From positions 1,254,730 to 1,318,729 of the forward strand of contig NW_004457654.1 of assembly GCF_000313135.1 (NCBI RefSeq): a DNA stretch of 64,000 bases, in the 5' to 3' direction. Shown here piece after piece: positions 19,716 to 23,252 of the stretch. The position numbers and the translations under genes are program-made. Origin of the DNA: Acanthamoeba castellanii str. Neff (lineage: Eukaryota; Discosea; Longamoebia; Acanthamoebidae). The first letter of the stretch is position 1, and each line of letters opens with the position of its first letter. A model generated the notes under the pieces. That model was not told the DNA's origin. It was given only the letters and a program-made list of their open reading frames with translations, and ran no database searches.

Positions 19716-22700
19716 TCAGTTGCTTCTGCTGCTGCTGCGGTTCAGCGCGGGCGAATGTGGCGGCGGTAGCGAGGGGCTGTGGCCGTCGTCCTGCGCCCAA
19801 TGCATGGCCCGCTCCACGGCCCGCTTCCACGCGGCGTACTTGGTCCGCCGTGTCTCCTCGTCAAACTCGGGCGTGAACCGGTGCATCGACGCCCGCAGGC
19901 CCTTCAGCTCCTCCTTCGACTTCCAAATGCCTGCCAGAGAGAGAGAGAGAGTTGAGTCGACCATGATGTGAAGAGGTCGCACGTGGAGGTGGTTCGCACC
20001 CGCGCCAAGCCCGGCCAGGAAGGCGGCGCCAAGGGCGGTCATCTGGTCGGGGTGCGGATGCCGTATGATCTCCCGGCCGGTCATGTTGGCGATGAACTGG
20101 TTCACAAAATCGTTCTGGCTGACCCCGCCGTCGATCTTCATCAGCGGCGACACTCGCAGGTTCGGCAAGTCGGCCTTCATCGTCTCCAGCAGATCATTGC
20201 ATGTGTAGCCCTACCATCCACGCGACAGAGGTGTCTGTCAGCACCGGTGTCGCGTGTTGCGTGTCGTTGGCCGTGTCGCTGGTGTGCCGTGTGTGCCGTG
20301 TGTGCCGTGTGTGCCGTGTGTGCCGTGTGTGCCGTGTGTGCCGTGTGTGCCGTGTGTGCCGTGTTAACGTACAATACTCTCCAGCATCGCGCGCACCAAG
20401 TGTTGCTTCTTGGTAGAGGTGGTCATGCCCAAAATTGTGCCTCTCGCCGTCGGATCTGCAAACAAAATCACGCCACCACACGCGAAGAGGGTGAGCAGAG
20501 CCTTCGACTCAATCATAATGAGAGCCGAGCGCGGGTGGGTTGTAAATAACATACCCTGATGAGGAGCCGCAAGGCCGGAGAAGGCGGGAACAAAATATAC
20601 GCCGTGGGTGTCGTCGACGGAGGTGGCCATGCCCTCCGTTTCCTTTGCGTGATCGTACCAGCCCATTTCCTGTGCGTGAACGCAGCCAATCGACAAAAAA
20701 AGTTTAAACTTCAATCGCCCACCAACCCAACAACGAGACAAGGAAAGGCGAGAGGTGAAAGGGGGGCAGTACCCGAGAGCCCCAGTCGATCACGGAACCA
20801 ACGCTGGGCATGGGACCCTCGATCATGTAGGTGATCTCCTTGCCTATCGCCCACGCGATCAGCGGCAACAAACTGAGAGATCAAGCGCAACTCGTCGGTG
20901 AGCGTTACGGTGCAGAAACGGCCGACAAGCAATGAACGGTAATTGACAGGAGGGAGTGGTTGGTTACCCGTGCGTGGAGACGAGAGGCTGCGAGCCGGTG
21001 TTGATGTCGATGAAGCAGCCCGTGCCGATCGTCACCTTACAGTCGCCCACGTCGAAGCAGCACTCGCCAAACAGCGCCGCCTGCTGGTCTGCGACGATGG
21101 CCCGAATCGGTATGGCCGCGCCGAAGAACCGAGGCAACGTGCTCCCAAAATCGCCGCTCGTGGGCCTCACCTACAGCCGAGTTAACCCGTCACAGTCGCT
21201 TTAGGTCCGCAGGTTCACACGCAGCGCGAGCAATCGTTGCTCTTCATTCCCCACGGGCGTCGTACCTCTGGAAAAATGCTCGCCGGAAGGCCGACGACGG
21301 AAAACAGTTGCTGATTCCACCCGAGCTCGAACGTGTCGTACAGCCCCGTCGCACTCGCGTTCGAATAATCCGTGGCGTGGACCTTACCGCCTGCGCGCGT
21401 TGCCATGTGTTCTGATGTGAGGCCTCATCGACACTCGCAGGTGATGATGATGATGATGATGAAGAAGAAGAAAGACAAGGCCATCTCGAACGCACCGGTC
21501 AGGTTCCACAATATCCAGGTGTCGGTGGTGCCGAAGAGGAGCTTGCCCTGTGCGGCCAGCTCTTGCGCGCCTTCGACGTTCTTCATGGCCCACATTAATC
21601 GGGGCGTGCAGTGGATTGGCGAGAACTTGAAGATGCTGCCCATCAGATGCCTGTCAACCAGTCAACACACCACGCCAGTGAGCAAACTGCAACTGAACTA
21701 AAACTTGAAGACTTCCGCCGAAATGCCGCACCTTGTTCTTCTCGTCACGATATGTGCAAACTTGGAGAACGCATGAATGCCTGCAGCAGAACATGCATCA
21801 GCAACACCACACACACACACACACACACAACACACACTAAACACCACACACCACACACACACACACACACGACGCAGAAAGGGCATCGCACCTCGGAAGG
21901 CGTAGGAGTCGTTCCACTCCTCACAGATACCGACTGTCCGCACGTCTTGCCAAGTGATAAAATTACAGAGCGGCCTTCCCGTCTCCCTGTGCACAGCGCA
22001 ATGATGGGATCTCGCGTCAGCTCACGCGCGGCTCGCATCATCCATCAACGTTGGAGGAGAAGGGGGAGGAACGTACTTGTTCCAGAGGAGGAACGATGCG
22101 CGCTGCGTCGTGATGCCGATGGCCTTCACCTGCGCCGCCGTTATTCGCGTCTTCTTCAACACCTTGTTGACCACATCCCTGAACGTGTCCAACAGCACCT
22201 GCACGCGCGCGCGATGAAGATGAGATGAGGACGCACCTTACAAGAAGAAGAAGAAGATGATGATGATGATGAGCTGTCAACAAAGGGCTTGGGCAGCGTG
22301 TGTATGTACGTACGTATGGGTCCTGTTCCACCCAGCCCGGCTGCGGGTAGAGCGTGGGCAGCGACTGGTAGAAGCCACCACGATTGCGGCATGACGCCGC
22401 GGGCTTGTCGTGTTTGCTCTTGCCCTTGGCGCCGCTGCTGCTGCCGCTGCTGCTGCCGCTGCCGCTGCTGCCCACGTCGTAGGCGTAGGCCCGCAGCCCG
22501 CTCGTGCCCACATCCACGCACAGCAGGTGCGGTGTCTCGCCGTCCACGTCCTCGTCTTGGTTGAGGTGATCGCACGCGCTGTTGGTCTCTTCATCGACCT
22601 CCTCCGTTTTATCTACTTCTTCTTTCTCCTCCTCTTTCTCGGGCTGTTTCATCTTCTTGCTGTTCATCTGCACGTAGTGGCGTTGGATGAGCGTGAAGGA

Positions 22701-23252
22701 GCGCGGGCAGTCGCCGAAGCGGAGGACGTCGCCTGGTCGCACGGGGGTGTACTCGCGCGCTGAGATGCGACGATCGTTGACGTAGGTGCCATGCTTGCTG
22801 CTCAGATCGTAGACAAAGATGGAGGGTTCCTCGGCATGATCGGTTTCTCCACCATTCTCGCTCTCCATCGTTCCTTTCGAGAGATTCGGTCTCGATCGCT
22901 CCTTCGTCACGGTTGGCTGCCCCTTCTCTCCATCCTTCTGCTGGCCATCTCGTGCGAATTGAAGAATCGCATGGGTTCTGGAGATCGAGAGGTGATCGAC
23001 GTAGATGTCGCACGAGGGCAGGCGGCCAATCGTGAAGTGTCCCTTCCTGGATTCGGCCAGAGCCTGGCTCAAATCGAAGGTCTCCATCGTACGCCCATTT
23101 CGGAGGGGCGATTCGAGGCTGAGCGTAATCGGATTCTTCTTGTGCTGCGTCAGTCCCCACGCCGGTGGCTCGTAGTCAATCGCTCCATCTTGCTCCTCCA
23201 TCACCACTCCTCCATCTTCGGGCACCCGGTCGTCCGCGAGGCGGCCCAGCAT
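19716..23252 (-). CDS. GK5-type glycerol kinase fused to an N-terminal FHA domain
   Basis: The first exon (23252 to about 22322) encodes both an FHA domain and the start of an FGGY kinase with no stop between them. FHA: PPAWGL, GRLPSCDIYVDHLSISRTHA, YDLSSKHGTYVNDR and RPGDVLRFG, closest by eye to the FHA domain of kanadaptin (SLC4A1AP). An acidic linker with EKEEEKEEVDKTEEVDEE joins it to LLCVDVGTSGLRAYAYD, the kinase phosphate-binding start. The kinase then follows GK5: YPQPGWVEQDP, GITTQRASFLLWNK, CNFITWQDVRTVG, LFGTTDTWILWNLTG, YSNASATGLYD, IVADQQAALFGECCFDVGD, GTGCFIDINTG, the catalytic-type Asp in MKIDGGVSQNDFV, and MTALGAAFLAGLG. Glycerol kinase activity is expected but GK5 substrates are poorly defined. 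FHA domains bind phosphothreonine, so recruitment to a phosphoprotein is an inference. Confidence 0.9.
20282..20364. repeat. 9-bp tandem repeat (GTGTGTGCC), about 9 copies, intronic
   Basis: Tandem array of a 9-base unit in an intron near the 3' end of the FHA-glycerol kinase gene. It differs by one base from the unit at 2255-2347. Confidence 0.93.
21806..21871. repeat. CA-rich microsatellite, intronic
   Basis: (CA)n blocks interrupted by ACTAAACACC, in an intron of the FHA-glycerol kinase gene. Confidence 0.85.

Follow-up and report, generated by a model that had tools for sequence, protein, structure and literature searches.

A kanadaptin-type FHA domain and a GK5-type kinase encoded by a single gene of Acanthamoeba castellanii

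PNKP resembles the protein described here in carrying an N-terminal FHA domain on an enzyme with a kinase for a substrate other than protein, and its FHA domain recruits the enzyme by binding XRCC1, as described in the available part of the source (PMC7746193). An FHA domain is also found on a metabolic enzyme in plants, zeaxanthin epoxidase (PMC2483416, in excerpt), which belongs to another enzyme class and bears the domain at its C-terminus. In kanadaptin (SLC4A1AP), the phosphate site of the FHA domain is lined by Arg193, Ser207, Arg208, Thr239, and His240, and Tyr154, Pro157, and Trp159 are conserved among kanadaptins, according to the accessible portion of PMC4157861. The glycerol signature of Escherichia coli GlpK is given as Arg83, Glu84, Tyr135, Asp245, and Phe270, with Asp245 contacting glycerol (PMC3245297, available text), and in the Plasmodium glycerol kinase the aligned Asp246 is the proposed base, while Trp103 and Gln247 touch glycerol (PMC2680290, available text).

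Here we analyze a gene of A. castellanii str. Neff within a 64,000-nucleotide stretch of contig NW_004457654.1 (the window). The gene runs on the minus strand from 23252 to 19716 in 12 exons and encodes 803 residues; its introns are 69 to 162 bases long, and 11 of 11 have GT-AG ends. Exon 1 comprises 939 bases from the ATG at 23252, with the donor GTACGT after 22314, and a single stop-free frame within it covers the FHA domain, an acidic linker, and the start of the kinase. The initial annotation had read these parts in one uninterrupted exon with neither a stop nor an intron between the domains, which the 313 open codons confirm, although it placed the exon end at about 22322. The features of the gene, all on the minus strand, are listed in the direction of transcription:

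23313 to 23318, minus strand: TATAAA, beginning 66 bases ahead of the ATG that opens the FHA domain frame; the sole one on the minus strand in 19600-23900
22314 to 23252, minus strand: exon 1, 313 codons, with the N-terminus, FHA domain, acidic linker, junction, and FGGY_N start; the same frame is open in P0123, P0124, and P0125
22677 to 23174, minus strand: kanadaptin-type FHA domain spanning residues 27-192, of which 105-141 form a variable insert (Pfam PF00498; kanadaptin 4h87 the best match)
22581 to 22676, minus strand: acidic, poorly conserved linker, residues 193-224 (from identity counts against P0123, P0124, and P0125)
22521 to 22580, minus strand: conserved junction, residues 225-244, containing DHLNQDEDVDGETPHLL, with Thr-Pro at 240-241 (from the alignment of relatives)
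22077 to 22198, minus strand: exon 2, kinase, with Arg346 and Ala347 at the positions of E. coli GlpK Arg83 and Glu84
21892 to 21986, minus strand: exon 3, kinase
21732 to 21780, minus strand: exon 4, kinase
21496 to 21650, minus strand: exon 5, kinase, with Ile414 at the position of E. coli GlpK Tyr135
21266 to 21390, minus strand: exon 6, kinase
20968 to 21170, minus strand: exon 7, kinase, with Asp523 aligned to Asp245 and Phe548 to Phe270
20773 to 20872, minus strand: exon 8, kinase
20555 to 20669, minus strand: exon 9, kinase
20373 to 20455, minus strand: exon 10, kinase
20000 to 20210, minus strand: exon 11, kinase, with KIDGGVSQND
19716 to 19930, minus strand: exon 12, with the TGA stop at 19716-19718
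19697 to 19702, minus strand: AATAAA, polyadenylation-like, 14 bases beyond the last base of the kinase stop codon; the sole one on the minus strand in 19600-23900

On the opposite strand, the open frame at 18982-19695 encodes the membrane region of an ABC-2 type transporter (PF19055, 4e-32). It ends at 19695, leaving about 20 bases up to the stop of the kinase at 19716, so that the two genes converge, and with so few bases between the frames the 3' ends of the transporter and kinase genes probably overlap.

The 803-residue translation equals, letter for letter, the public protein P0001, entered as 'glycerol kinase [Acanthamoeba castellanii str. Neff]' in NCBI and as 'Glycerol kinase 5' in UniRef. 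A Pfam search, proposed earlier as a check on the domain assignment, placed all three domains above their cut-offs: an FHA domain split in two by its insert (PF00498, 8.8e-17; 61.7 bits against a cut-off of 20.7), FGGY_N (9.2e-44), and FGGY_C (4.1e-32). The FGGY kinase part is complete. The initial annotation knew of no described FHA-glycerol kinase protein. We likewise found no description of this architecture in the literature searched, but the protein itself stands in NCBI and UniRef, with its Pfam FHA domain precomputed. The protein and its Pfam domains are thus already public and the domains are known; it is their combination, kept in relatives, that we did not find described.

The FHA domain is kanadaptin-type. 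Among solved structures kanadaptin 4h87 is its best match, as had been proposed for this domain, both with the single sequence (56.3 bits, the next chain scoring 31.8) and with a four-sequence profile (80.4 against 50.3 bits), and a fold search with a low-confidence model of exon 1 (mean pLDDT 45.4) again returned kanadaptin first. Four of the five kanadaptin pocket residues are kept in the 4h87 alignment, as Arg77, Ser91, Arg92, and His154, with Lys153 in place of Thr239, and the N-terminal Tyr, Pro, and Trp shared with kanadaptin correspond, when matched by motif, to Tyr27, Pro30, and Trp32, present in all four exon-1 sequences. The two proteins differ in what follows the FHA domain, which in human kanadaptin is a double-stranded RNA-binding domain (PMC4157861, accessible portion) and in Acanthamoeba a kinase; Pfam gave no match to a double-stranded RNA-binding domain in the 803 residues at E <= 0.001. 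A model of the whole protein (mean pLDDT 74.8) is good in the kinase and poor in the FHA N-half, insert, and junction, and because the models have low confidence at the FHA N-half and junction we make no claim about domain packing.

The organism's own genome assembly (38.4 Mb in 250 contigs) was searched with an oomycete FHA protein, P0002, which we take to be kanadaptin-like. It gave five matches, two in the fused exon 1, two in other FHA exons, and a weak fifth (E 0.24) outside the FHA domain; this search brought up no clear separate kanadaptin gene, although it does not prove absence. An exon-by-exon search found 14 FHA matches in the genome. The one on C208 was considered as a second copy or haplotig of the fused gene and rejected, being 36% identical over 47 residues and ending its own frame; it is another FHA gene. 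At that locus (C208:1-1984), as read by eye, the frame ending in the FHA domain precedes a tRNA-like stretch and then a flavodoxin-like frame, and the domain itself resembles the SNIP1/DDL type.

The same order of domains, which the initial annotation had suggested looking for in other genomes, recurs elsewhere. A search with the FHA-and-linker portion of exon 1 yielded, from 512 candidates, three matches (P0123, P0124, and P0125), and three of three hold the FHA domain, acidic linker, and beginning of the kinase within a single frame. Their identity to exon 1 is 93%, 66%, and 45%, respectively, in the multiple alignment and 92%, 53%, and 30% by BLASTP. Pfam finds the FHA domain in each of them and FGGY in none, because only the first kinase residues are present; the kinase start is seen there by alignment alone. 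The frames extend 38, 5, and 17 residues beyond WVEQDPY or WVEQDPN, the site at which intron 1 starts in the Acanthamoeba gene, and because they pass this site the three look, from their protein letters, like reads of genomic DNA from a gene built in the same way. Conservation is uneven along the exon. Identity to P0123, P0124, and P0125 is 75/78, 60/78, and 25/78 in the FHA N-half, 31/37, 14/37, and 8/37 in the insert, 51/51, 36/51, and 29/51 in the C-half, 26/32, 13/32, and 5/32 in the linker, and 20/20, 20/20, and 19/20 in the 20-residue junction, which is 8/20 identical to P0004. In P0125 the junction exceeds both the linker (Fisher p 9.5e-9) and the FHA halves (4.3e-6) in conservation, but compared with the kinase core next to it, its conservation is not higher (Fisher p 0.42), and this stretch may just be a piece of the kinase fold. 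Since three other sequences keep the FHA domain, linker, and kinase start in frame together with a near-invariant junction, the fusion is unlikely to be an accident of the gene model.

Two other searches bear on how widely the FHA domain is shared. Residues 1-330, searched against longer proteins only, returned P0001 and two FHA proteins, P0002 and P0003, neither with an FGGY kinase, and PF00498 occurs in P0001 alone among the 120 kinase matches listed of 7999. No FHA domain was seen in the kinases P0005 and P0006, and plasmid records gave no FHA match, as expected. The nearest kinase relative, P0004 (612 residues, on a 1886-base contig), begins after the FHA domain, which could have been cut off or be absent.

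The kinase has the FGGY fold of canonical glycerol kinases, which are its top fold matches. Aligned with E. coli GlpK (1bo5), it keeps three of the five signature residues, Arg346 (Arg83), Asp523 (Asp245), and Phe548 (Phe270), and differs from the canonical enzyme in the other two, with Ala347 for Glu84 and Ile414 for Tyr135. The Asp245 equivalent, Asp523, is kept within VADQQAALFG; the Asp of KIDGGVSQND, which the initial annotation cited as kept, is a different residue. The Plasmodium Trp103 and Gln247 positions are kept as Trp366 and Gln524. Among the 120 matches listed of 7999, Arg346, Trp366, Asp523, Gln524, and Phe548 are present in all 120, whereas the signature Glu and Tyr are both present in 101 and both absent from 19.

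Grouping these matches by the residue at position 347, we built a tree of all 19 GK5-like sequences, 15 of the 101 GlpK-like ones, and two paralogues from the Acanthamoeba genome, C168 and C176. A branch with support of 100/100 splits 20 GK5-like rows (the 19 and C168) from 16 GlpK-like rows (the 15 and C176, a long branch on that side), and the window kinase groups with animal GK5 at 100/99, in agreement with the earlier naming of this kinase. By sequence, it falls within the GK5 type. Animal GK5 proteins also lack the Glu84 and Tyr135 equivalents (P0010, P0011, P0015, P0017, and P0019) but, unlike the Acanthamoeba protein, P0010, P0015, and P0019 have no FHA domain. 'GK5-like' is wider than named GK5, as unnamed sequences and one from an archaeal MAG are among the 19. 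The latter, P0008 (511 residues, Promethearchaeota, annotated GlpK), falls in the GK5-like group without the signature Glu and Tyr, and GK5-like kinases may extend beyond eukaryotes unless this MAG is contaminated. The window kinase falls short of the two GlpK cut-offs of NCBIfam, with 486.6 of 498 bits in one case, a narrow miss, and 477.9 of 590.35 bits in the other; P0004 and the mollusc GK5 P0010 also miss both, and the control P0036 passes both.

Of the two paralogues, C176 is a canonical glycerol kinase, keeping the NQRET motif and the Tyr, and C168 is GK5-like and has neither. The C168 locus (C168:141800-145600) has Asn at the position of GlpK Glu84, and ADQG replaces ADQQ at the Asp245 site. 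None of the 14 FHA matches of the genome lies on C168 or C176. Because two of the five glycerol-signature residues are changed and the genome holds a separate canonical glycerol kinase, glycerol is doubtful as the substrate of the fused kinase. The protein had first been called a metabolic glycerol kinase; of this name, the FGGY kinase of GK5 type stands and the glycerol part is in question. The kept glycerol contacts (Trp366 and Gln524) and the narrowly missed GlpK cut-off speak against a substrate other than glycerol.

Taking these observations together, we lean toward one gene for one 803-residue protein, with a kanadaptin-type FHA domain, linker, junction, and GK5-type kinase, in which the FHA domain docks a non-glycerol phosphotransferase to phosphothreonine. 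The likeliest role of the FHA domain would be to dock the kinase in a phosphothreonine-dependent way, the kind of recruitment that the initial annotation had proposed. The phosphothreonine could lie on another protein or within the fused protein itself, and its binding would place the kinase at a signal-dependent site, much as PNKP is recruited by its own FHA domain. The PNKP kinase has a fold unrelated to FGGY and acts on DNA. The long acidic linker, probably disordered, would let the docked kinase act nearby. The kinase itself would transfer phosphate from ATP to an acceptor other than free glycerol, at least for the most part, given that every GK5-like sequence examined departs from GlpK at two glycerol contacts and that a canonical glycerol kinase is encoded elsewhere in the genome.

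It is less probable that the gene gives rise both to the fused protein and to a shorter form, the kinase alone, translated from Met196 or Met201, which would make the FHA domain optional. The initial annotation saw no start-like context between the domains, but both of these in-frame methionines (at 22667 and 22652) lie in the linker after the FHA domain and make a shorter product possible, and methionines occur at comparable places in P0123 (198 and 203), P0124 (224), and P0125 (211 and 215). The kinase also stands alone in relatives, given that P0001 is the one FHA carrier among the 120 matches listed. Against this, the stretch of P0004 that precedes the kinase, from the first residue on, contains no Met, and a scan of the minus strand over 19600-23900 found no TATAAA in the linker.

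Comparably improbable is an FHA domain that has become a drifting passenger or a structural cap without phosphopeptide binding. P0125 (366 residues) has Ala and Ala at Ser91 and Arg92 and, in one alignment, Lys for Arg77, and just 25 of 78 residues of its FHA N-half are identical; having lost these pocket residues, it shows that phosphate binding is not universal among fused relatives, and at least this one probably lacks the classical mode. Yet P0125 keeps the pocket Thr and His along with its 19/20 junction, and its FHA domain still scores 52.6 bits against the Pfam cut-off of 20.7. P0123 and P0124 have the same pocket and motif residues as the Acanthamoeba domain, and the pattern in P0124, in which Arg, Ser, Arg, and His are kept and both halves are conserved (60/78 and 36/51) against a diverged insert (14/37), is that expected of selection on fold and pocket.

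Somewhat less likely still is a phospho-gated small-molecule kinase for a substrate other than glycerol, in which the FHA domain would read a phosphothreonine, possibly the protein's own Thr240-Pro241 in trans, and phosphorylation would thereby assemble the enzyme or bring it into place. This Thr-Pro pair is present in the junction of four of four fused sequences and absent from P0004, and might be a candidate phosphorylation site. If true, such gating would connect the GK5 family physically and directly to protein phosphorylation, and would make the biochemical substrate of this family an open question. Finally, the possibility that annotation merged two separate genes, to which aligned animal GK5 proteins without an FHA domain and a separate human kanadaptin with no kinase domain named in the accessible portion of PMC4157861 would point, is close to refuted and was rejected, given the single exon with no stop between the domains, the junction common to four sequences, and the one TATAAA and one AATAAA.

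GK5-type kinases are named glycerol kinases, yet two of the five residues that mark glycerol specificity are missing from all 19 GK5-like members of the 120 matches listed. Acanthamoeba strain Neff is grown in culture, and the idea of an FHA partner is testable there. The fusion with an FHA domain, a module of a phosphopeptide-binding type, offers a handle on the role of the GK5 family, and the binding partner of the FHA domain probably marks the neighborhood in which the kinase acts.
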